DNA of 64,000 nucleotides from Sneathiella sp. (GTDB taxonomy: Bacteria; Pseudomonadota; Alphaproteobacteria; Sneathiellales; Sneathiellaceae), in contig NZ_JARGOQ010000013.1 in assembly GCF_029233945.1 (NCBI RefSeq), positions 1-64,000 of the forward strand. The letters run 5' to 3'. This document shows positions 8,332-20,759 of the stretch, one piece after another. Made by a program: the position numbers and the translations under genes. A model generated the notes under the pieces. It did not search any database and was not told the DNA's origin. It saw nothing but the letters and a program-made list of their open reading frames with translations. Position 1 is the first letter of the stretch, and each line of letters begins with the position of its first letter.

Positions 8332-9477
8332 ATGTTATTAAAAGGCAATCGATTCTTCTCAACGGGCGACCTGGTAGCTTTTGCCATCCTCGCCGTCCTG
8401 ATTTTCGTTATCCTCCCGGTCGGGCTAGATACCTTTCGCCTCAATCTTTTCGGCAAGTATCTGACTTATGCATTTGTCGCGATTGGTCTGGTTCTTTGCT
8501 GGGGTGCGGGCGGTATCCTGAGCCTTGGGCAGGGGGTGTTCTTCGGTCTCGGCGGCTATTGCATGGCGATGTTCCTGAAGCTGGAAGCTTCCAGCCCAGA
8601 AGCTACCAAGATCCAGTCCACGCCGGGCATTCCGGACTTCATGGACTGGAACCAGATCACTCAAATTCCGCTTTGGTGGGAGCCGTTCCATAGCCTTACC
8701 TTCAGTTTGTTTGCTGTCATCCTTATCCCGGTTGCGTTCGCCTTTATCATCGGTGTTGCCATGTTCCGGCGTCGGGTGGGTGGTGTGTACTTTGCCATTA
8801 TCACACAGGCCATTGCCGCGATCCTGACGATCCTGATTATCGGTCAGCAGGGTTATACCGGCGGGGTCAATGGTATCACCGATCTTCGCACCCTTAAGGG
8901 ATGGGATATTCGTACCGATGACGCCAAAGTCTTGCTCTATTTCGTGAATGGCGGTCTACTGTTTGTCTGCCTTTTCATCGCGCAGCTGATCCGAAAATCG
9001 AAGCTTGGCCGTATCCTGATCGCCATGCGGGATCAGGAAGATCGGGTGCGTTTCTCGGGCTATGACGTCGCCAATTTCAAGATTTTTGTTTTCTGCGCCG
9101 GGGCAGCCTTTGCCGCCGTTGGCGGCGCCATGTTCACCTTGCAGGTCGGTTTTATGTCGCCGAGCTTTGTCGGTATCGTTCCCTCCATCGAAATGGTGAT
9201 TTTCTGCGCTGTTGGTGGCCGGCTTTCGATTATTGGCGCGGTTTACGGTGCGCTTCTCGTCAATCTCGCGAAGACAACCTTCTCGGAACTCTTCCCCGAG
9301 CTCTGGCTGCTTGGCCTCGGCGCGGTCTTTATCGCCGTCGTCCTTGCTTTCCCGAACGGTCTTGCCGGCCTTTACAAAGACCATGTAGAGCCCCGGCTGC
9401 TCGTCATATTCAAGCGAAAAGCCGGAGATGACAGCAGTACAGAAGACTTCGATGCCATTAAAACCGCAGCCGAATAG
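8332..9477 (+). CDS. urtC: Urea/amide ABC transporter permease UrtC
   Basis: 381 residues, 10 nt after urtB. It is a LivM-type permease: CWGAGGILSLGQGVFFGLGGYCMAMFL, the substrate-pathway stretch FAIITQAIAAILTILIIGQQGYTGGVNGITDL, and coupling loop AMRDQEDRVRFSGYDV. The 40-residue hydrophilic loop after the third helix (LEASSPEATKIQSTPG) is typical of UrtC. The C-terminus is a short charged cytoplasmic tail. It pairs with UrtB in the inner membrane. Confidence 0.94.
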   Translation: MLLKGNRFFSTGDLVAFAILAVLIFVILPVGLDTFRLNLFGKYLTYAFVAIGLVLCWGAGGILSLGQGVFFGLGGYCMAMFLKLEASSPEATKIQSTPGIPDFMDWNQITQIPLWWEPFHSLTFSLFAVILIPVAFAFIIGVAMFRRRVGGVYFAIITQAIAAILTILIIGQQGYTGGVNGITDLRTLKGWDIRTDDAKVLLYFVNGGLLFVCLFIAQLIRKSKLGRILIAMRDQEDRVRFSGYDVANFKIFVFCAGAAFAAVGGAMFTLQVGFMSPSFVGIVPSIEMVIFCAVGGRLSIIGAVYGALLVNLAKTTFSELFPELWLLGLGAVFIAVVLAFPNGLAGLYKDHVEPRLLVIFKRKAGDDSSTEDFDAIKTAAE

Positions 9478-9488
9478 GAGGAAAGACA

Positions 9489-10235
9489 ATGAATGCACGA
9501 CCGGATTTTTTGCTATCGGTTGAAAATCTTACCGTTTCCTTCGATGGCTTCAAGGCAGTGGATGGTTTGAGTTTCTATGTGGAGCCGAATGAGTGCCGCG
9601 TGATTATCGGTCCGAACGGCGCCGGGAAGACAACAGTTCTCGATCTCATCTGCGGGCGCACCAAGGCTACCGACGGCAAGGTTGAGTTCAAGAACCAGGA
9701 ACTCCTTAAAATGCGGGAGGATCAGATTGTCCATGCAGGCGTCGGGCGGAAATTTCAGACGCCGACCGTGTATGAGGATCTAACCGTTTTCGAAAATCTG
9801 GAGATTTCTTACCCTAAGGGCCATGGCGTGTTCGGTGCGTTGATGTTTCGCCGCGATGATCCGGTTAAATCCCGCATCAACGAGATCGCGGGAGAAGTTT
9901 TCCTGGATGATCTTCTGGATGAAAAGGCAGCTTTCCTGAGCCATGGCCAGAAGCAGTGGCTGGAGATTGGGATGCTGTTGATCCAGGATCCGGAGCTGTT
10001 AATGCTCGATGAACCTGTAGCCGGCATGTCGGTCGCCGAGCGCATACAAACGGCCGAGTTGCTCAATCGCATCATAAAGGACCGGTCCGTGATCGTGATT
10101 GAGCATGACATGAAATTTGTCGAGGATATCGCGACCCGGGTCACCGTTTTGCATCAGGGCAAGGTCCTCTCGGAAGGGTCCATGGCTCATGTGCAGGCCG
10201 ACCCTAAAGTTATTGAAGTCTATCTTGGCCATTAA
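9489..10235 (+). CDS. urtD: Urea/amide ABC transporter ATPase UrtD
   Basis: 248 residues with AGGAGGAAAGACA before the ATG. A LivG-type ABC ATPase: Walker A GPNGAGKTT (41-49), signature LSHGQ (150-154), Walker B LMLDEP (171-176) and the H-loop IEHDMKFVEDI. The GRKFQTPTVYEDLTVFENL segment and LSHGQKQWLEIGMLL are characteristic of UrtD. It powers import on the cytoplasmic face as one half of the UrtD-UrtE heterodimer. Its stop codon shares one base with the earliest possible start of urtE. Confidence 0.95.
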   Translation: MNARPDFLLSVENLTVSFDGFKAVDGLSFYVEPNECRVIIGPNGAGKTTVLDLICGRTKATDGKVEFKNQELLKMREDQIVHAGVGRKFQTPTVYEDLTVFENLEISYPKGHGVFGALMFRRDDPVKSRINEIAGEVFLDDLLDEKAAFLSHGQKQWLEIGMLLIQDPELLMLDEPVAGMSVAERIQTAELLNRIIKDRSVIVIEHDMKFVEDIATRVTVLHQGKVLSEGSMAHVQADPKVIEVYLGH

Positions 10236-10246
10236 TGGAGGAAATG

Positions 10247-10936
10247 ATGTTAGCAGTTGATAATCTTCGCTCCGCTTACGGCGAATCCGAAGTCCTTCAT
10301 GGTCTTGATTTTGAGGTCAAGCCTGGTGAAATCGTTGCGATCATGGGTCGCAATGGCATGGGCAAGACAACCTTGATGAAAACCCTCATGGGCATTGTGC
10401 CGACGAAGCAAGGACATGTCGAGATTGATGGAACATCGATTGAGAATTTAAAATCCTATGAAAGGGTTGGCAATGGTCTCGCCTATGTGCCGCAGGGGCG
10501 ACAGATATTCTCTTCCATGACGGTTGAGGAAAATGTCGAAACCGGCTTGATCATTACCGGGGAGAAAACGGTCAGCCCGGATATCTATGAGCTCTTCCCC
10601 GTTCTCGTCGAAATGAAATCACGCCGGGGCGGTAATCTTTCAGGCGGTCAGCAACAGCAGCTCGCCATCGCCCGCGCGCTCGCATCCAAACCGAAGGTCC
10701 TTCTTCTTGATGAACCGACCGAGGGGATACAGCCTTCCATCATCCGCGAGATGGCAAGGACGCTGCGCCGTATCCGCGATGAACGGGGGCTCTCCATTAT
10801 CGTTTCAGAACAGGTCTTGAGCTTCGCGCTGGATGTCGCAGACCGGGTGCTTGTCCTTGAAAATGGCGAATTTGTCCATGAAGCGCCGCGCGACGGCATC
10901 GACGAAGAAAAAGTTTCGAAATTCCTATCCGTCTAA
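10247..10936 (+). CDS. urtE: Urea/amide ABC transporter ATPase UrtE
   Basis: 229 residues from ATG 10247. The GGAGG at 10237-10241 sits 5 nt upstream of this codon, which yields the usual UrtE beginning (MLAVDNLRSAYG). ATG codons at 10235 and 10244 are alternatives. Walker A is GRNGMGKTT (34-42), signature LSGGQQQQLAIARAL and Walker B VLLLDEPTEGIQPSII; the EGIQPS phrase is typical of UrtE. It pairs with UrtD in the cytoplasmic ATPase heterodimer and completes a full five-gene transporter. Confidence 0.94.
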   Translation: MLAVDNLRSAYGESEVLHGLDFEVKPGEIVAIMGRNGMGKTTLMKTLMGIVPTKQGHVEIDGTSIENLKSYERVGNGLAYVPQGRQIFSSMTVEENVETGLIITGEKTVSPDIYELFPVLVEMKSRRGGNLSGGQQQQLAIARALASKPKVLLLDEPTEGIQPSIIREMARTLRRIRDERGLSIIVSEQVLSFALDVADRVLVLENGEFVHEAPRDGIDEEKVSKFLSV

Positions 10937-10964
10937 CAAATCAATGTGACCCAGAGGAGGCAAT

Positions 10965-12197
10965 ATGACTGATACCCTTATTGAAGTGAACCTTGGCGAA
11001 AGCCCGCTAACGAACGAGAAAATCCATAACCGCTGGCATCCCGATATTCCGATGGCCGTCTGGGTGAAGCCGGGTGATGATTTCAAGGTCGAAACCTACG
11101 ACTGGACGGGCGGGCAGATCAAGAATGACGATGATGCCGCCGACGTTCGCGATGTGGAACTGGCGCAGGTTCATTATCTCTCCGGTCCGATCGGCGTTGA
11201 AGGGGCGGAGCCGGGCGATCTGCTGGTGGTCGATATTCTTGATATCGGCACGATGGAAGACAGCCTTTGGGGGTTTAACGGCTTTTTCTCAAAACAGAAT
11301 GGCGGCGGCTTCCTGACCGAACATTTCCCCGAAGCCCAGAAATCGATCTGGGACTTCGAAGGCATGTTCACCAAGTCTCGTCATGTGCCGGGGGTGCGCT
11401 ATGCGGGCCTTATCCATCCTGGCTTGATCGGCTGTTTGCCGGATCAGAAGATGCTGGACATGTGGAATGAGCGAGAGAGTGGGCTTGTTGCGACCGACCC
11501 GGACCGAATCCCGGAACTCGCAACGCTTCCCGATGGTGGCCCGACCGCGCATATGGGAAAGATGACCGGTGAAGCGAGGGATAAGGCGGCGGCTGAGGCC
11601 GCTCGGACAGTGCCGCCGCGCGAACATGGTGGGAACTGCGATATCAAGGACCTATCCCGCGGTTCGAAAATTTATTTCCCGGTTTATGTCGATGGGGCGG
11701 GGCTCTCCATGGGGGATTTGCATTTCAGCCAGGGGGATGGTGAGATCACTTTCTGCGGCGCCATTGAAATGGCGGGCTGGCTGCATATCAAGGTGTCGCT
11801 TATCAAGGACGGCATGAGCAAATATGGCGTGAAGAACCCGATCTTCAAGCCATCGCCAATTACACCGAAATATGATGACTACCTGATTTTTGAAGGCATT
11901 TCCGTCGATGAGGCGGGTAAACAGCATTATCTCGATGTCCATATCGCCTATCGTCAGGCTTGTCTGAATGCGATCGAGTATCTGAAAAAGTTCGGTTACA
12001 CGGGCGCTCAGGCCTACGCGATCCTTGGCACCGCGCCAGTGCAGGGGCATATTTCCGGGGTTGTCGATATCCCGAATGCCTGCGCAACGCTCTGGCTGCC
12101 AACGGATATTTTCGAATGGGACATGATGCCAAACACGGACGGGCCTGTGAAATATCTTGATGGGTCCATCGATGTGCCGTTGGCGCCGGACCTCTAA
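10965..12197 (+). CDS. fmdA: Formamidase (FmdA/AmdA family)
   Basis: 410 residues, behind a GAGGAGG ribosome site 28 nt after urtE. It belongs to the acetamidase/formamidase family, which hydrolyses formamide to formate and ammonia in the cytoplasm. The N-terminus HNRWHPDIPMAVWVKPGDDFKVET, the segment PGVRYAGLIHPGLIGCLP and the C-terminal half VDIPNACATLWLPTDIF match FmdA from methylotrophs and other proteobacteria, and the length (about 405-410) is right. Placement in the transporter operon indicates that imported short amides are used as a nitrogen source. No urease genes are visible in this window. Confidence 0.95.
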   Translation: MTDTLIEVNLGESPLTNEKIHNRWHPDIPMAVWVKPGDDFKVETYDWTGGQIKNDDDAADVRDVELAQVHYLSGPIGVEGAEPGDLLVVDILDIGTMEDSLWGFNGFFSKQNGGGFLTEHFPEAQKSIWDFEGMFTKSRHVPGVRYAGLIHPGLIGCLPDQKMLDMWNERESGLVATDPDRIPELATLPDGGPTAHMGKMTGEARDKAAAEAARTVPPREHGGNCDIKDLSRGSKIYFPVYVDGAGLSMGDLHFSQGDGEITFCGAIEMAGWLHIKVSLIKDGMSKYGVKNPIFKPSPITPKYDDYLIFEGISVDEAGKQHYLDVHIAYRQACLNAIEYLKKFGYTGAQAYAILGTAPVQGHISGVVDIPNACATLWLPTDIFEWDMMPNTDGPVKYLDGSIDVPLAPDL

Positions 12198-12755: not shown

Positions 12756-14255
12756 CTAATGGATTGCCGCGTGCAATATTTTCTCAGGTGAGGCTTCATC
12801 CCGGGAAAACTCGGCAACGATGGTGCCCCCCTTTGCCACCAGGATGCGGTCGGATACATCGAGAATTTCAGGCAGGTACGAAGAAATGACAACAACACCG
12901 GCGCCACTATTGGCTATGTTTCGGATTATATCGCGGATTTCGGCAATGGCTCCGACATCCACTCCCCGGGTAGGCTCATCAAAAATGACAAGGCTCGGCT
13001 CCTGGATGAGGGTTTTTGCAATTACGACTTTTTGTTGATTGCCGCCGGACAGCTTATGTACGGTTTGAAACTCGCCAATACCCCTGATTGATAATTTTTC
13101 CTGCAACTCAAGAACCTTGGGCCTCAACTTTTTCCGGTTAATCAGGAACTTGCCTTTCGCCCATTTTGCGATCCACCCCAGCGATACATTTTCAAAGACG
13201 CCCATGGTTTCGAAAAATCCGTCAACTTTCCGATCCTCCGTCACATAGGCAATACCGTCCTGAACGGCTTGCGCCGGAAGCCTGTAGCGGATTTCCTTGT
13301 CATTGAGATATATATGGCCGCCGCCGAAATTGCGTTTAATTTGTCCGATAATTACCTTTGCAATTTCGCTTCGCCCAGACCCGATCAATCCGGCAATACC
13401 TGTGATTTCCCCGGGAAAGACGGAGAATGACATATTATTGACCATATTGCCCATCCGCACATTTTCAACTTTCAGCATCGGTTTACGCGCCCGGGATGCC
13501 GGAGGTATTTTTGATTTTGCGGTTGTTTCGCTGGCAAGATCCTGTCCAACCATATGCCGGATCAGGCTGTTGCGATCAAAAGTACCGGCATCGCCAGACG
13601 TAATTTTCTTTCCGTTTCGTAAAACGGTGATGCGGTCGGCGTGGGTCAAGGCTTCCTCAAGCGCGTGGGAGATGAAAATCATCGCGACGCCTTTTTGGCG
13701 AAGGTCATTCATCAGGTAAAAAAGATGATCGGTTTCTTCCGGTGTCAGGGCGGCCGTCGGCTCATCGAGAATGATAATACGTGATTTATTATATACCGCA
13801 CGGGCGATCTCGACCATTTGCTTCTGCGCGGCACTTAAAGCGCCGGCCTTCATGGCCGGATCGATATTAAAGTTAAGCGATCGTAATAATTGGCGGCACT
13901 CATCGCTCAGCTTCCGGGCGGAATTGAAAAGCCGTTCGCGACCGAGCACCATATTCTGGGCGACAGAAAGTTGCGGCACCAGGCTCGTTTCCTGAAACAC
14001 CATGGATATGCCTTTATCAAAGGCATCACGAGGTGATTTCAGGGAAAATGGGGCGTCCTCAAAGGTGATGTCGCCGCCATCCAGAAGAACGACCCCGGCG
14101 ATAACCTTGCAAAGAGTGGATTTTCCGGCACCATTTTCACCGACCAACGCATGAATTTCCCCGGGGTTAAGTTCAAAATCAACCGCATCAATCGCCGGGA
14201 AGCCGCCATAGGTCTTGGTTGCGTTCTTTACTTTGAGGAAAGATGAAACTGTCAT
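12756..14255 (-). CDS. RbsA/MglA-type sugar ABC transporter ATPase (double ABC domain)
   Basis: 499 residues, the standard length for RbsA/XylG proteins with two ABC cassettes. The first cassette has Walker A GENGAGKST (39-47), signature LSAAQKQMVEIARA and Walker B IIILDEPTAAL. The second has the degenerate Walker A GLIGSGRSE usual for the family, with signature LSGGNQQKVVIAKTL and Walker B LVIFDEPTRGVD. It energises import through the two permeases of the same operon. Its start overlaps the upstream propeller gene by 4 nt (ATGA). It is the last gene of the operon. The substrate is not evident: the family handles sugars, polyols, autoinducer-2 and some nucleosides. Confidence 0.93.
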   Translation of the reverse strand: MTVSSFLKVKNATKTYGGFPAIDAVDFELNPGEIHALVGENGAGKSTLCKVIAGVVLLDGGDITFEDAPFSLKSPRDAFDKGISMVFQETSLVPQLSVAQNMVLGRERLFNSARKLSDECRQLLRSLNFNIDPAMKAGALSAAQKQMVEIARAVYNKSRIIILDEPTAALTPEETDHLFYLMNDLRQKGVAMIFISHALEEALTHADRITVLRNGKKITSGDAGTFDRNSLIRHMVGQDLASETTAKSKIPPASRARKPMLKVENVRMGNMVNNMSFSVFPGEITGIAGLIGSGRSEIAKVIIGQIKRNFGGGHIYLNDKEIRYRLPAQAVQDGIAYVTEDRKVDGFFETMGVFENVSLGWIAKWAKGKFLINRKKLRPKVLELQEKLSIRGIGEFQTVHKLSGGNQQKVVIAKTLIQEPSLVIFDEPTRGVDVGAIAEIRDIIRNIANSGAGVVVISSYLPEILDVSDRILVAKGGTIVAEFSRDEASPEKILHAAIH

Positions 14256-15319
14256 ATCAGTTGATCCATAGAAGTGACTTTTAATAGTTCATCACTCCCC
14301 TTGCTGACCGCTATCAAGTCACCCCGCCATTCCAATGCTGATGTAATGCCGTGACGCGTGCCATTTGCGCGCGATTGTGCGCTTGAGAGAGGTGTGAAAT
14401 TATTATCGAGGATGATTACCAGACCGTAGGAAAATGACGGAGCCCACGGCTTGATGTCACCAAACAGGCGAGCGGCGCCCATCTGGATCGGAACTTTGTA
14501 ATCGGTATTTGCGGCAAACCGGGGCCCAACCCAGTATTGAGGGTCAATCTCGGCGACCATTCGGTCGCGAAATTCCGTTTCGCTCAAGACAAATTCAATG
14601 AGCGGGTCACGCCGTGAAAACAGAGACAAAACATAGCCACCCCCAGACAATGGATTGATGCGCGCCGGATAACCGGGGGCATCTTGCAGAACAGCTTTGG
14701 ATGGCTTGTCTTTTGCCAGTTTTAAAATGCTGGCAGACCAGCTTTCGCAGACAAGTACTTCTTTCTCGCGCGTCTCGAGGACGCCATATGGAAATCGCAG
14801 CTTGTCAGCAATTACACTAACGTCACCTTCTTCAGTGAACTGGACCACCCGGCCATTTCCGGTTTTACTATAGAGATCCTGCATAAGGGATGTATGCCCA
14901 TCTCCTACGCCTGCATCGGCGATTAAAATGGCGCCGCTATGGGAAAAGCTGCATGCCTGAACATCTTGAGCCGATGTTTCCAATCCGTGCCAACCGGGAG
15001 AGGGAGCGCCTTCCTGAGTTATCATGCGCAAACCCGCGCCTTTAAGGCCAACAGCAATGACGCCATCCTGCCGACACGCCAATGCGCTGACGTCATGGTC
15101 AAACTCAGCTACTAAATCAAAGACGCCCTTTTCCCAGTCAGTGAGGCGCAGGATGGACTTGCCACTGCTGACAAGTAGCGAGCCATCCGGGGCAATACAT
15201 AAATCATTGGGATTTGCGACAGAAAATCCTGCGCCCTGTTCCAGCAAATCATTGGGGCACAACGGACCGTCCAGCAGGGAAATTCGCGCCGGTTTTTTCT
15301 TCTTCAATTTGAACATCAT
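14252..15319 (-). CDS. SMP-30/strictosidine-synthase-like beta-propeller protein
   Basis: 355 residues, 2 nt downstream of the permease-propeller fusion. Repeated blade-like segments (NPNDLCIAPDGSLLVSSG, then FPYGVLETREKEVLVCES and GYPARINPLSGGGYVLSL) match the six-bladed SMP-30/gluconolactonase/strictosidine synthase superfamily, whose members hydrolyse lactones or esters at a Ca2+ site. No signal peptide is visible (it starts MMFKLKKKKPARISLL), so it is probably cytoplasmic. It resembles the propeller half of the preceding fusion (shared YPARIN/YPDNIN and FPYGV/FPNGV phrases), suggesting duplication. Lactone hydrolysis of the transported compound is plausible but unproven. Confidence 0.82.
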   Translation of the reverse strand: MMFKLKKKKPARISLLDGPLCPNDLLEQGAGFSVANPNDLCIAPDGSLLVSSGKSILRLTDWEKGVFDLVAEFDHDVSALACRQDGVIAVGLKGAGLRMITQEGAPSPGWHGLETSAQDVQACSFSHSGAILIADAGVGDGHTSLMQDLYSKTGNGRVVQFTEEGDVSVIADKLRFPYGVLETREKEVLVCESWSASILKLAKDKPSKAVLQDAPGYPARINPLSGGGYVLSLFSRRDPLIEFVLSETEFRDRMVAEIDPQYWVGPRFAANTDYKVPIQMGAARLFGDIKPWAPSFSYGLVIILDNNFTPLSSAQSRANGTRHGITSALEWRGDLIAVSKGSDELLKVTSMDQLI

Positions 15320-15321
15320 GA

Positions 15322-17463
15322 TTATTTGCTCCCGGACCAGTAGCTGTCCGGACCATTCCAGCCCGTATCCGCTTCTGCAAGATCAATCCGTCCAATCTTG
15401 TTGTTGGTCACGCCGCCAAGAAACAGGGAACCGCGATGCTCTCGCATTGACGTGATCATGTAGAGGGGGCCATCGGATTTGTCCCAGTATGCATCAATAA
15501 TCTCACCGTTTGCATCCGATTTCAGCACCCCACCAATGTTCAGATTGCCAAACAGCCAGTTTGTCGGCGGGACGCGTTTTGCCATCCGCAAGCGAAAGTC
15601 GGGGTTCTCCATGGCAAGATCGACAATTGGCGAGCGCATACCGGCAAGGGCAATCCAGTAACCACTATCTGAAGATCGGTTGATATTGTCCGGATATCCC
15701 GGCAGGCCACGGGCAAAATATCGCGGACCATCCTGCATCCGCTCCAGATCAAAGATAAGTATCGCGCACATCCATGTACTGGCAACCAGTAAATGGCGGC
15801 CATCATGGGTCAGGCAAACGCCATTGGGGAAAATCAGGTTGTTACAGACTGTTTTGGTGGTGCCATCGGTCGGATCATAGCATAAAAGCCGCCCGTTACC
15901 TCGTCCCTCCAGAAGGTCAAGTCCCCAGGTTTCCATCTCATAGCGTTTGGTTGCGTCCGAAAAGTAAATCTTTCCATCCGGCGCTATGTCCAGGTCATCG
16001 GCCATTCTTATATGGCGGTCATCCTCAATTGATGTCCAGCTCCGTTTTGTCTGGCTTGTCAGGCGCTCAATCTGGCCCGGGCCCGCAATTCGGTAAAGCC
16101 CCATGCCGGCCACACACACAACGAGTCGTTCCTCGGCATCGAATGCTAACCCTAAGGGTCGGCCGCCGGTTTTTACATATGTCTCGACCCGCGTATGATC
16201 GGGGGCAAAAAGTTTCATAATACGGCCGTCCCTTGTGCCGCAATAAAGATTTCCCTCCCGGTCGAGAATGACATCTTCCGGACCATCGACCTCGCCGACG
16301 CCTAAAAGGGAGGCGCCCTCAAGTTTTGTCGAACCGAACTCCAGCGCCAATTTCCCCATATCGCGAACCGGATCAACCTTCAAGGTGGTTGGGTCCAGAT
16401 ATGCACGTGCCAGCATCCGATGACGCTCTTTGCGATATTTCATATCGATGGTTAGAATTGTAATCAGGATTAAACCCATGATGCCGGTAATAAAATCACC
16501 GCGAAAACCGGCATTGGTCAAAACATTGCCCAAAATGAAGATGGTTGCAAAGCCGAGCAATGTACTGAACACGCTACCGCGCCCCGGAGTAAACCCGCCA
16601 AGGCCTAGAACCAAGCCTGTTAAAACAAAAAACTCGAGCCCGACGCCAGTGTCAGAACCGGCGCTGTTTTGCCGGGCTGCGAACAGGAACCCGGCAAGTC
16701 CGACAAGCGCGCCTCCCAGTGTATAGGAGAGGACGATCACCCATTTCAGATGAATGCCGGCATGACGCGCGGCTTTTCGGTTACCGCCAACCGCCAGAAT
16801 ATGCCAGCCAAAGCGGGTGTATTTGAACATCAAATACACGGCGATTGTGACAACGATCAGGGCCCAGAAGCTGACTGGAATTCCCATGAAATTTTCAAAT
16901 CCGACGTAATCCCATGTCGCATCGACCCGTGCACTGTTGGAAATCTCAACGAGATAGGCCTGAGAGACAATGACGAAAATTCCCCGGACCGTAATCATCG
17001 TTCCAAGCGTAGCAAGCAATGCACCACACCCTAATATGCCGGTTAGGAATCCGTTGAACAAGCCAATCAGGGCTCCACAAACAAGCGTAAGCGGAAAGAC
17101 CACATAAATTGGCAGGCCGGCAATATGAAACAGATAAAGTGCAACGAAGGCGGAAAGGGCGAATGTTGACCCAACAGACAGATCAATGCCGCCGATTGCT
17201 ACAACCAACAACATGGCAATAGTGACAATCGCCACATCCGATGAATACTGCGCGAGCGTGTTGAGGTTGGATGGGGAAAAATAGCCGTCTGTGGTAATCA
17301 GGATTGCTGTGATTAGTACGAAAAAAGTGATGAAAGGAATGGCGCCCTCAATCCAGTTGCGATTCAGCAAATCCGAAATAATCCGCCGATAGGACAAAAC
17401 AGTGTGCTGCTTCCTGACCTTTGACTGACTGCCCAGGAAATCGCTGTTTTCTGCAGAACTCAT
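15322..17463 (-). CDS. ABC permease (RbsC-type) fused to an SMP-30-like beta-propeller
   Basis: 713 residues, about twice a normal RbsC. Residues about 35-350 are a ribose-type permease: IGGIDLSVGSTFALSAFVAL, then LLATLGTMITVRGIF, VGGNRKAARHAGI and LGLGGFTPGRGSVFSTLLGFATIFILGNVL. A 25-residue linker of charged sequence follows (MKYRKERHRMLARAYLD). Residues about 375-713 are a strictosidine-synthase-like propeller with LIFPNGVCLTHDGRHLLVAST and LPGYPDNINRSSDSGYWIALAG. No stop or frameshift interrupts the join, so it reads as a genuine fusion. RbsC-type permeases normally end in the cytoplasm, which would place the propeller at the inner channel mouth (inference). GGGGAAAG precedes the ATG. Confidence 0.9.
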   Translation of the reverse strand: MSSAENSDFLGSQSKVRKQHTVLSYRRIISDLLNRNWIEGAIPFITFFVLITAILITTDGYFSPSNLNTLAQYSSDVAIVTIAMLLVVAIGGIDLSVGSTFALSAFVALYLFHIAGLPIYVVFPLTLVCGALIGLFNGFLTGILGCGALLATLGTMITVRGIFVIVSQAYLVEISNSARVDATWDYVGFENFMGIPVSFWALIVVTIAVYLMFKYTRFGWHILAVGGNRKAARHAGIHLKWVIVLSYTLGGALVGLAGFLFAARQNSAGSDTGVGLEFFVLTGLVLGLGGFTPGRGSVFSTLLGFATIFILGNVLTNAGFRGDFITGIMGLILITILTIDMKYRKERHRMLARAYLDPTTLKVDPVRDMGKLALEFGSTKLEGASLLGVGEVDGPEDVILDREGNLYCGTRDGRIMKLFAPDHTRVETYVKTGGRPLGLAFDAEERLVVCVAGMGLYRIAGPGQIERLTSQTKRSWTSIEDDRHIRMADDLDIAPDGKIYFSDATKRYEMETWGLDLLEGRGNGRLLCYDPTDGTTKTVCNNLIFPNGVCLTHDGRHLLVASTWMCAILIFDLERMQDGPRYFARGLPGYPDNINRSSDSGYWIALAGMRSPIVDLAMENPDFRLRMAKRVPPTNWLFGNLNIGGVLKSDANGEIIDAYWDKSDGPLYMITSMREHRGSLFLGGVTNNKIGRIDLAEADTGWNGPDSYWSGSK

Positions 17464-17549
17464 CTAATCTTTCCCCGTAGTTCACCCGTCAGGCACGTGC
17501 GATCGCGCCTGACGGCCCTATTTTCAGACTTTTGAAAGCTTTCTTTACT

Positions 17550-18545
17550 TTATGACTTTGCGGGCAGGTCCCAGCATTGTTGCGGCTTATAGCTTTCCTT
17601 CTTGATGACGATCAGCGGAGATTCAACTTCCAGCATCTCCCCTTCGGCGGGTTTCGCTCCCTGCATCATCAAGCGCAGCATTGTACCTGCGTCACGACCC
17701 TGACCATCAGCATTATAGCTCCAGTAACGGTCGATAACGCCCGCCTCGATGTTGTCGCAGATCACGCGATTGCCGCCGCCGGTCGCGTAAACCAGGACGC
17801 TGTCGGCTTTTCCGGCATCCTTGACGGCGTTGCCTGCCCCAATCGTATGAATTCCCCAATGGCCAAAGACAGCACAAAGATCAGGATTCTGCTGCAAAAC
17901 GGTTGCGGTGATCTGGCGTGCCTTTTCCGGCTCCCAGTTGGAAGCCTGGTTCGATACGACTTCAATTTCCGGATGTTCCGCAAATACGGCCATTGCCGCC
18001 TCGTTCATCAGGACGCTGTCGGCGGCGGTCAATTGCCCGGGGATAATCGCAACCTTGCCGGATTTTCCGCTGTCCTTGCCACAAGCTGTGACGATATCTT
18101 CGGCAATATCATGGCCGATACGTGTCCAGTTTGCGCCTACAAAGGCCGTCGATTTCTGGTTTGACTGCAGGTTGATCTGCAATACTTTAATACCTTGTGA
18201 TTCTGCCTGGCGAATTTGCCGGGCAAGTAGCTGAACCGTTGGGTTATGTGCCACAATGATGTCCGGCTTGTCATTGATCGCTTTGGAGAAGATTTCGGAC
18301 ATTGTTTTCATATTGAAGGCAGCATCACGGACTTCATAGCCAAAGCCATTTAGATTGGCCTGCTCCTCCATTCCCCGTGACCACCCTTCAGTCAGCGTTA
18401 TGCCCATGGCGATAGGAATGAAAATTACCTTTTTGCCCTCATAGGCGGAGGCAGCCTCGGCCGTTTGGTGCGTGGTAAGTGCAGCTGCAATCAGCGCTGT
18501 TGCAACGCTCAGGCTGGCCATTCGTTTCAGATATTTTTTTAGCAT
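17550..18545 (-). CDS. RbsB-type sugar ABC transporter substrate-binding protein
   Basis: 331 residues. I chose the ATG at 18545 because GGGAGA lies 6 nt upstream; ATGs at 18551 and 18569 are less well placed. A clear Sec signal peptide (MLKKYLKRMASLSVATALIA to about TAEAA) leads into a type I binding fold: KVIFIPIAMGITLTEGWSRGMEEQ, then KPDIIVAHNPTVQLLARQIRQAESQGIKVLQIN. It captures the ligand in the periplasm for the two permeases flanking it. The 86-nt gap to the next operon gene is longer than others in this unit. The ligand is unknown. Confidence 0.93.
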   Translation of the reverse strand: MLKKYLKRMASLSVATALIAAALTTHQTAEAASAYEGKKVIFIPIAMGITLTEGWSRGMEEQANLNGFGYEVRDAAFNMKTMSEIFSKAINDKPDIIVAHNPTVQLLARQIRQAESQGIKVLQINLQSNQKSTAFVGANWTRIGHDIAEDIVTACGKDSGKSGKVAIIPGQLTAADSVLMNEAAMAVFAEHPEIEVVSNQASNWEPEKARQITATVLQQNPDLCAVFGHWGIHTIGAGNAVKDAGKADSVLVYATGGGNRVICDNIEAGVIDRYWSYNADGQGRDAGTMLRLMMQGAKPAEGEMLEVESPLIVIKKESYKPQQCWDLPAKS

Positions 18546-18583
18546 ACTCATTCTCCCATTTTGTTTCATTTCGAGTTTCTAGT

Positions 18584-19675
18584 TCAAAGGTCTCCCTGGG
18601 TGTTCGTCTCGGTATCTTTGGGGTTAATGTAGTTGTCGATGACGATAGCCGAGATGAGGATCAGCCCTTTCACCAGGTCTTGGATCTGGCCTGACAAATT
18701 TAGAAGCGTCATGCCATTTTGTAATACGCTGATCAGTACTACGCCGATAATCAGATTGAAAACGCCACCGCGACCGCCCCGCAGCGGGATGCCGCCCAGC
18801 ACCACCACCATGATCACTTCAAATAACATCGTCCCATTTGTCACGATGCGAAAATCCACTGTCCCACTGGAACTGGAGACGATTATTCCGGCGATGAATG
18901 CGGTTATGGCAGAAAATATATAGAGCCAAATAGTTGCCGTCCGAACGGAAAGGCCTGACAGGCGCGCCGCGATATAGTTATCGCCCATTGCATAAAACAT
19001 GCGCCCCAACACCGTCAGGTTTAAAAGTATGAACGTTGCAATCAGAACCACAATACCAATGACAACGGATACGGGGAAAATGGAAATCTTGCCGGTCGAT
19101 ATATAGATGACTTGCGGCAAGTCTTTCGGTATCAAAACAAGAAACTCTCCTTGCAGAATACCCCAACGGCAAAAGCCCGCAATCAACATGGCCGTTGCAA
19201 GCGTGCTCATCAACGCGGGAATTTCAATATAGGCAACGAGCCACCCATTGAGCGCCCCAAGGATGAGCGCGAGAATAAATGCAGCCCCCATTGCCATCAT
19301 ATAGTCTGCACCATTGCTGAGCATCAGCCCGAATACGGCAGAGACAGCGACCATGACTGAAATTTGCGATAGGTCCAGCCCGCGATTAATAATTACCGCC
19401 GCCATGCCGCACCCCAGTATCGCAAGTGCGGTGGAGTTCTGGGCAAGAATCAAAAGATTGCCAACCGTTAGAAACCCCTCAATCAGCGTTGTGAAGGCCA
19501 GGACAAGAGCCAGCGTGATGCCCAGTATAATATATTCCAAGGGATGTTGCTTGAAGGACAAGCGTTTTTGCCACTGCTGAAAAGCAGCGGAAAATCCCCT
19601 CCCGCGTCGGTTCTGCGGAAGCGGCCCTCCGTGTTGGTGTAAGGAGTTTGACGATTCACTCAAGCCGATATCCAT
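18584..19675 (-). CDS. RbsC-type ABC transporter permease
   Basis: 363 residues, with an N-terminal hydrophilic stretch of about 45 residues and then eight to ten membrane segments. RbsC landmarks: GCGMAAVIINRGLDLSQISVMVAVSAVFGLML (IDLSVG region, here RGLDLSQ), LMSTLATAMLIAGFCRW, and GGIPLRGGRGGVFNLIIGVVLISVLQNGMTLL. It should pair with the permease half of the fusion protein to form a heterodimeric channel. First gene of the ABC operon on the minus strand, 445 nt downstream of the TetR gene on the same strand. Confidence 0.93.
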   Translation of the reverse strand: MDIGLSESSNSLHQHGGPLPQNRRGRGFSAAFQQWQKRLSFKQHPLEYIILGITLALVLAFTTLIEGFLTVGNLLILAQNSTALAILGCGMAAVIINRGLDLSQISVMVAVSAVFGLMLSNGADYMMAMGAAFILALILGALNGWLVAYIEIPALMSTLATAMLIAGFCRWGILQGEFLVLIPKDLPQVIYISTGKISIFPVSVVIGIVVLIATFILLNLTVLGRMFYAMGDNYIAARLSGLSVRTATIWLYIFSAITAFIAGIIVSSSSGTVDFRIVTNGTMLFEVIMVVVLGGIPLRGGRGGVFNLIIGVVLISVLQNGMTLLNLSGQIQDLVKGLILISAIVIDNYINPKDTETNTQGDL

Positions 19676-19739
19676 TCATTTCGGCTGTTTCCCTGAAATC
19701 AGCCTTTTTTGAGTTTCTTATTATCAAATATGTCGTAAT

Positions 19740-19755
19740 TTTACTATTGAGTAAA
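19740..19755. promoter_or_regulatory. Inverted repeat upstream of the RbsC-type operon
   Basis: TTTACT-ATTG-AGTAAA is an exact 6-bp inverted repeat in AT-rich DNA 65-80 nt upstream of the first ABC gene. It could be an operator or simply promoter-region AT richness; confidence is low. Confidence 0.3.
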
Positions 19756-19943
19756 TAAAGGTACTTGTGAGAAATATACTTGTCAACATCTACCGTGCCA
19801 ACCTCGCGCGCAACTATGATCCGCGTTCATCGAGGGCAGGCATTACATGTCGGGCAGGGGCCTTTAGTTCCTTTGATCCCGGCTGTGTCAGGTTTGGAAA
19901 ATGCATAAAATTCCTACCTCCATCGGTGATCTGTTGCTTGCGG

Positions 19944-20043
19944 GAACGTTACGGTGGGGAAATTCTAACGTTCGATACGCACATCGACTAATTGAAGGGT
20001 AATCAACAGAACTGCAGATGGCCGGGTTTCTTGTCTGGCCATC
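19944..20043. other. Two inverted repeats in the 445-nt TetR/ABC gap
   Basis: The 19676-20120 gap has no convincing gene. It holds GAACGTTA (19944-19951) matched exactly by TAACGTTC (19966-19973) across 14 nt, and GATGGCC (20017-20023) matched by GGCCATC (20037-20043). The second, downstream of the TetR stop on the minus strand, may act as its terminator. The first is a candidate protein-binding site. Confidence 0.35.
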
Positions 20044-20120
20044 AAGAACCGGAATCCGTCTCTCCTGGATTCTCAAGTTGTTATGGGTGCGGTTGGGCCA
20101 GGAAGCGGTCCGGTATGCTG

Positions 20121-20759
20121 TTAATCCGCTTCATCCGGGCGCGATTTTAGTCCATTTACAAAAAGGAAAACAAAGCAATCGGCAACTTCTTCCACGGATT
20201 TTTCACCCTCGGGGTTAAACCATCTCTGTATCCAGTTATTTGCCCCCATCAGGATAAGTTCTGTTAATTTGGGAGGCACTGCGGCAATCGAGCCATCGGC
20301 AATGCCTTCTTCGATGATACCGGCAAGGTTACTATCCAAAAGACGGGCGCGACGATGGATGTGATCATAGGCCTCCCCCGGGAGGATTGCGAATTCATGA
20401 ACGATGGCGACGGGCCCCGTCTTCAAAACGCCGCTTATGACGCCGCGAAAATAAGTTTCAATTTTCTCAATGCCAGAGGCGTCACTTGCCAATACTTCCT
20501 GCATAACCTGTTCACAAAGATTGAGGGTTAGCTCGTAGCACATTTGAAGCAACGCTGGCTTGCTCTTCACATAATAATATAAAGCCGTTTTGGAAATGCC
20601 AAAATGCTTCGCGATTTCATCAAGGGAAGTTGCCGCATATCCTCTTTTGTTGAACATCTCGGCGGCGATATGCAGGACCGCTTCTCGTTTGATATCATGA
20701 TCGCGACGCTTATCAAATACGTTCCGATCCTTACGACTATTCAAGGCGCTTTTCCTCAT
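20121..20759 (-). CDS. TetR/AcrR family regulator
   Basis: 212 residues. The N-terminal helix-turn-helix (about 20-70) reads REAVLHIAAEMFNKRGYAATSLDEIAKHFGISKTALYYYVKSK. The C-terminal ligand domain resembles those of KstR2-like TetR proteins, many of which sense acyl-CoA thioesters. A paralogue-like protein is encoded at 49547-50164 (shared RTLYYYVK-type helix, then EEGIADGSIA versus QKGIEDGSIA). It lies upstream of the RbsC-type operon on the same strand and probably controls it, itself, or both. A near-perfect 10-bp inverted repeat sits immediately upstream of its start (20766-20794). Confidence 0.9.
   Translation of the reverse strand: MRKSALNSRKDRNVFDKRRDHDIKREAVLHIAAEMFNKRGYAATSLDEIAKHFGISKTALYYYVKSKPALLQMCYELTLNLCEQVMQEVLASDASGIEKIETYFRGVISGVLKTGPVAIVHEFAILPGEAYDHIHRRARLLDSNLAGIIEEGIADGSIAAVPPKLTELILMGANNWIQRWFNPEGEKSVEEVADCFVFLFVNGLKSRPDEAD

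Follow-up and report, generated by a model that had tools for sequence, protein, structure and literature searches.

A conserved fusion of an RbsC-type ABC permease with a strictosidine-synthase-like propeller in Sneathiella and other bacteria

The stretch of DNA analyzed here (64,000 nucleotides of Sneathiella sp. contig NZ_JARGOQ010000013.1; hereafter, the window) carries a tight run of six genes on the minus strand. In the order of transcription, they encode a TetR-family regulator upstream of the transporter cassette (positions 20121 to 20759; profile match to TetR_C_24), an unfused second permease (18584 to 19675; BPD_transp_2), a periplasmic substrate-binding protein (17550 to 18569; Peripla_BP_4), a 713-aa fusion of an RbsC-type permease with a strictosidine-synthase-like (SSL) six-bladed propeller (15322 to 17463), a free propeller of 355 aa (14252 to 15319), and a tandem RbsA/XylG-like ATPase of 499 aa (12756 to 14255). 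The stop codon of the fusion lies 2 bp from the start of the free-propeller gene, and the free-propeller and ATPase genes overlap by 4 bp. The window, then, encodes a BPD_transp_2/RbsC-type (CUT2) permease together with its binding protein and tandem RbsA-like ATPase in one operon. Classification as a sugar importer by homology was rejected, as none of the NCBIfam sugar equivalog cutoffs was reached, the best match being to the RbsC model (136.8 versus 398 bits). The 86-base gap between the binding-protein and fusion genes (17464 to 17549, minus strand) contains a 12-bp hairpin (MFE of -29.6, z score of -3.6), which perhaps stabilizes the binding-protein mRNA or damps expression of the fusion.

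The initial annotation described a permease that continues in frame into a six-bladed propeller of about 340 residues and is followed by a second, free propeller. These statements hold once the gene is assigned to the minus strand. On the plus strand, positions 15322 to 17463 contain stop codons throughout, whereas the minus strand carries a single open frame of 713 codons with Pfam matches to both halves. The permease domain (residues 37 to 345; positions 16429 to 17355) matches BPD_transp_2 (Pfam ID PF02653) at residues 69 to 336 (E value of 5.7e-30, 104.8 bits versus a gathering score of 26.8 bits) and has 10 predicted transmembrane (TM) helices, both termini being predicted to be cytoplasmic from these helices and the charges that flank them. 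The fused propeller (residues 381 to 713, or about 381 to 710; positions 15325 to 16323) matches SSL_N at residues 379 to 417, Str_synth at 489 to 568 (E value of 4.4e-20), and SGL at 422 to 609, all above the respective gathering scores. The linker between the two halves (residues 346 to 380; positions 16324 to 16428) is constrained: in all 81 aligned fusions, Y355 and P358 are invariant, and the span from K345 to E396 is 51 to 54 residues. Across the same 81 sequences, the propeller is better conserved than the permease, with a mean top-residue frequency of 0.70 versus 0.60.

The fusion is not confined to the window. A second complete cassette, whose fusion protein is 44% identical, is found on another contig of the same genome, and 9 others among 60 relatives have a fusion that extends over both halves, one of them cut by a contig end. 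When a single genome per species was scanned, at least 513 related stretches were recovered, and the best 80 of these, all named loci, were analyzed. These come from Alpha-, Beta-, and Gammaproteobacteria, a "Desulfobacterales" bin, a "Deltaproteobacteria" bin, and Amycolatopsis. All 80 keep the fusion, the gene order second permease-binding protein-fusion-propeller-ATPase is retained wherever the contigs allow, and the free propeller is directly downstream of the fusion in each of the 77 testable loci. Among 398 sampled Pseudomonadota, 11 further genomes encode the fusion and none has a version split into separate permease and propeller genes. Because the ranking that yielded the best 80 loci favors fused genes, a permease-side search was added. 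In 27 genomes, every permease match with an E value below 1e-44 lies in a long frame of 505 to 954 codons, and the matches that come next (1e-37 or weaker) belong to ordinary sugar-type permeases that carry no fusion. The 505-codon frame belongs to a fusion whose reading frame is broken in one assembly (locus L174), the sole such copy seen.

Thus, apart from this frame-broken copy, no unfused arrangement of this permease/propeller pair was found in the relatives, the best 80 of the at least 513 loci, the 398 Pseudomonadota, or the 27 genomes. A sequencing or assembly error that joins two separate genes is refuted: the split homologs and junction error that would have spoken against the initial annotation were looked for with a negative outcome, and genomes assembled independently, from many genera and lineages, all retain the fusion. 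Nothing in the window points to such an error; artefacts of this general kind are seen elsewhere, in the L174 assembly and in locus L059, where an apparent permease-propeller-propeller frame (17013 to 20192, minus strand; 1,060 codons) was rejected as the product of consecutive Ns at the junction. For the gene in the window, we regard an artefactual origin as having a negligible probability: the fusion is real and is due neither to chance nor to sequencing error.

An AlphaFold2 (AF2) model of the fusion, built on the 81-row alignment, shows ten long helices in residues 37 to 341 and six propeller blades (mean pLDDT of 84.8); its pTM of 0.61 makes the relative placement of the permease and propeller halves unreliable. 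In fold searches with the full-length fusion, the matches cover the propeller half only. Residues 370 to 713 of the model align with members of the strictosidine synthase/DFPase/paraoxonase superfamily that have six blades, the number given in the initial annotation. The closest match is rice TGW6 (8kg3; Z score of 33.5, root mean square deviation of 2.4, 277 residues aligned), followed by strictosidine synthases (Z of ~32), DFPase (~30.5), the RPA3624 lactonase (30.0), and PON1 (28). By its fold and its SSL profiles, the fused propeller belongs to the strictosidine-synthase-like/N6P superfamily. In this superfamily, four conserved metal ligands mark the hydrolases, and most strictosidine-synthase-like proteins keep them, which makes these proteins likelier hydrolases than strictosidine synthases (PMC4215206).

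All four metal-ligand positions of the hydrolytic N6P members are present in the fused propeller. On the minus strand of the window, the putative ligands are E396 (16276 to 16278; E59 in TGW6 and, by the aligned range, residue 21 in DFPase), D489 (15997 to 15999; N167 in TGW6), N547 (15823 to 15825; N226 in TGW6), and the D592-N593 pair (15685 to 15690; D271/N272 in TGW6). TGW6 positions were matched to those of the fusion by HMM alignment; the offset of 28 between index and residue number was calculated manually. All five residues are identical in the 81 aligned fusions, and some fusions outside this alignment have Asn at position 489. The putative Ca2+ positions of TGW6 are Glu59, Asn167, Asn226, and Asn272; its crystal contains no bound Ca2+, which its authors link to the single acidic residue at the site, yet the enzyme hydrolyzes IAA-glucose (PMC10958001). 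The fused propeller, which shares with TGW6 the fold, the SSL_N/Str_synth/SGL profiles, and the E/N-or-D/N/DN pattern of ligand positions, differs from it in being carried by an importer permease and in having more acidic residues at the putative site, namely, E396, D489, and D592. With DFPase, Drp35, PON1, and the RPA3624 lactonase, which are metal-dependent lactonases or phosphotriesterases, it shares the six-bladed fold (Z of about 28 to 31) and the type of ligands; however, sequence identity to these is only about 15 to 18%, and they are soluble or secreted enzymes rather than transporter domains. In the propeller tree, the fused propellers form one group (SH-aLRT support of 97), and their neighbors are free-standing bacterial SSL proteins, most of which have the same motifs. 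A true strictosidine synthase, i.e., a metal-independent condensing enzyme, was discarded as a candidate, the metal ligand set of the fused propeller being intact. Judging from this sequence pattern, the fused propeller is predicted to bind a metal ion and to act as a hydrolase.

The free propeller is a different case. Its Str_synth score of 22.7 bits is below the 25-bit cutoff, reflecting a diverged sequence, but its AF2 model (pLDDT of 90.5) matches TGW6 (Z of 30.4), STR (about 29), and DFPase (29), so that the modeled fold places it in the N6P superfamily as well. The metal-ligand set of N6P hydrolases is absent from this protein (14252 to 15319). The equivalents of E396, D489, N547, and D592 are replaced or variable, with Gly, Ala, Ser, or Cys in place of D592, and 68 of 72 sequences have Arg at the position of N593. 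The free propellers of the cassettes form a separate group in the propeller tree (SH-aLRT support of 100) that lacks the metal-ligand motifs. With these residues gone, the free propeller is probably not a second hydrolase. Its presence in every testable cassette nevertheless indicates that it is probably kept as a pseudoenzyme or a binding partner, most likely in a structural or regulatory role.

The placement of the fused propeller relative to the membrane is indicated by its permease relatives. Three genomes (G416, G488, and G500) from two genera of one other bacterial family encode members of the same permease clade that are fused directly to the tandem ATPase in a single chain (846 aa in G416). 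These homologs have related binding proteins encoded next to them and, in contrast to the cassette in the window, no propellers; a related second permease is confirmed in G416, and the G488 and G500 loci are too short to cover it. The permease tree places them as the sister group of the propeller fusions as a whole, whose clade has a support of 87. An ABC ATPase is necessarily cytoplasmic and is joined here at the same end of the permease; therefore, the C terminus of the permease should be cytoplasmic and so should the propeller. The 10 predicted helices, combined with positive charges flanking the last of them, lead to the same orientation. All of this strongly argues for a cytoplasmic fused propeller and agrees with the earlier proposal that it sits at the inner mouth of the channel. 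If the ATPase-fused homologs transport, the propeller is dispensable for transport as such, as a transporter of this clade can exist without it. The loci encoding such permease-ATPase chains, L125 (4433 to 6973, minus strand; 846 aa), L133, and L134, display an unusual ABC importer architecture in their own right.

In its BPD_transp_2 permeases, Peripla_BP_4 binding protein, single tandem ATPase, and one-operon organization, the cassette resembles the CUT2 importers for ribose (RbsABC), arabinose (AraFGH), and autoinducer-2 (LsrABCD), the last of which also has two different permeases. Unlike these, it has a permease-borne propeller, a free propeller, scores far below the sugar equivalog cutoffs, and a bias toward acyl-CoA genes among its neighbors. 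The latter emerged from a comparison of 35 nonredundant fusion loci with 38 loci of unfused RbsC-type permeases from genomes that also encode the fusion. CoA-catabolism genes (acyl-CoA ligase, enoyl-CoA hydratase, acyl-CoA dehydrogenase, family III CoA-transferase, or thiolase) are found near 20 of the 35 fusion loci versus 4 of the 38 controls (P = 3.9e-5), and sugar-type genes (FGGY kinase or Gfo/Idh/MocA) are found near 3 of 35 versus 14 of 38 (P = 0.005); both P values are indicative only because the families were grouped post hoc, some of the seeds were drawn from the fusion set, and the sampled stretch was measured differently for each set. Fifteen of the 35 fusion loci lack CoA-type genes up to a distance of about 7 kb. 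The neighborhoods thus argue for carboxylic-acid/acyl-CoA catabolism more than for sugars, and they would fit a carboxylic acid ester or lactone as the substrate, its acid part then being activated. The neighbors of the cassette at annotated plasmid loci are varied, so that the substrates probably differ between cassette copies.

Taken together, these data suggest that many Proteobacteria cleave an imported compound on entry and that this compound is probably not a plain sugar but an ester or a lactone. The reading that we favor, with moderate confidence, is that of a CUT2/RbsC-type ABC importer that has a cytoplasmic ester or lactone hydrolase tethered to one of its two permease subunits. The binding protein would hand a small solute to a permease pair made up of the unfused permease and the permease half of the fusion, with the single tandem ATPase powering both. 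On the inner side, the solute would reach the putative metal site of the C-terminal propeller, which would hydrolyze its ester or lactone bond. The products would be trapped, and the acid part would pass to acyl-CoA activation and the beta-oxidation-like enzymes that are often encoded nearby. The free propeller would serve as a catalytically dead paralogue with a structural or regulatory part in the assembly. Such a hand-over of the solute from the channel to the fused propeller had been suggested at the outset. A stronger version, in which the cassettes make up a class of vectorial import-and-hydrolyze ABC systems, with a tethered metal-dependent lactonase or esterase and its pseudoenzyme partner combining uptake and the first catabolic step in one device, is offered only tentatively.

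Two other readings compete with that of a tethered hydrolase. The fused propeller might be a sensor or gate: on binding the imported solute or a metal ion at the cytoplasmic end of the channel, it would block or permit the action of the ATPase (trans-inhibition), and the dead free propeller would be its partner. C-terminal regulatory domains are known on subunits of other ABC importers, and the retention of the free propeller without catalytic ligands in 77 of 77 testable loci suggests that the pair serves in binding or as a structural unit. The fused propeller may act as a sensor or scaffold, but as the whole explanation we consider this rather unlikely: it has an invariant set of metal ligands and motifs that match those of free hydrolase-like SSL proteins, and it is conserved better than the permease, whereas a pure sensor could drift more, as the free propeller has done. 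Alternatively, the propeller may hydrolyze a product of other cytosolic enzymes, the link to the permease giving equal expression and no vectorial handling. Adjacency alone can yield a fusion where genes abut or overlap as closely as they do in this operon, and the permease-ATPase chains show that the same permease end can be joined to the next gene. That the searched genomes and loci contain no unfused arrangement, and that the span across the junction and its two invariant residues (81 homologs) are more tightly constrained than a casual fusion would predict, leaves a mere tether with a low probability in our view.

No earlier description of a permease-propeller fusion was found in the open-access literature, and databases name the fusion proteins after either half, as "SMP-30/gluconolactonase/LRE family" or as "ABC transporter permease." The cassette apparently is a conserved variant of known parts and families in an undescribed combination. 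Transport coupled to chemistry (group translocation) is established for the PTS and for acyl-CoA synthetase systems; we know of no ABC importer in which the permease polypeptide itself includes a hydrolase. The architecture occurs widely (at least 513 related stretches at one genome per species, the best 80 of them all fused) and is annotated inconsistently, and some soil and marine bacteria have several copies of the cassette; its substrates therefore represent a sizeable unexplained part of their nutrition. The pairing of a propeller enzyme with a dead paralogue is, moreover, open to direct testing in this cassette.

Several gene sets around the cassettes deserve mention. In the window, an acyl-CoA catabolic island lies divergent from the transporter operon (21262 to 41798, plus strand). 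It encodes a GntR-like regulator, two family III CoA-transferases, two carboxyltransferase subunits, a biotin carboxylase, an acyl-CoA dehydrogenase, an acyl-CoA ligase, two enoyl-CoA hydratases, an SDR, and two TRAP systems (NMT1-like plus DctM and DctPQM). In 6 of the best 80 of the at least 513 loci, a gene with the FAD_binding_3 and Oxidored_FMN domains (FAD-monooxygenase/FMN-oxidoreductase; L083, 15191 to 17569, plus strand) is found downstream of the cassette, which hints at aromatic-CoA substrates in that lineage. On the other side of the operon in the window (8332 to 12197, plus strand), genes for a branched-chain/urea-type ABC transporter are followed by the formamidase gene fmdA (769 bits versus a cutoff of 500), i.e., uptake and hydrolysis of an amide or formamide encoded by separate genes, an unfused import-and-hydrolyze neighbor.
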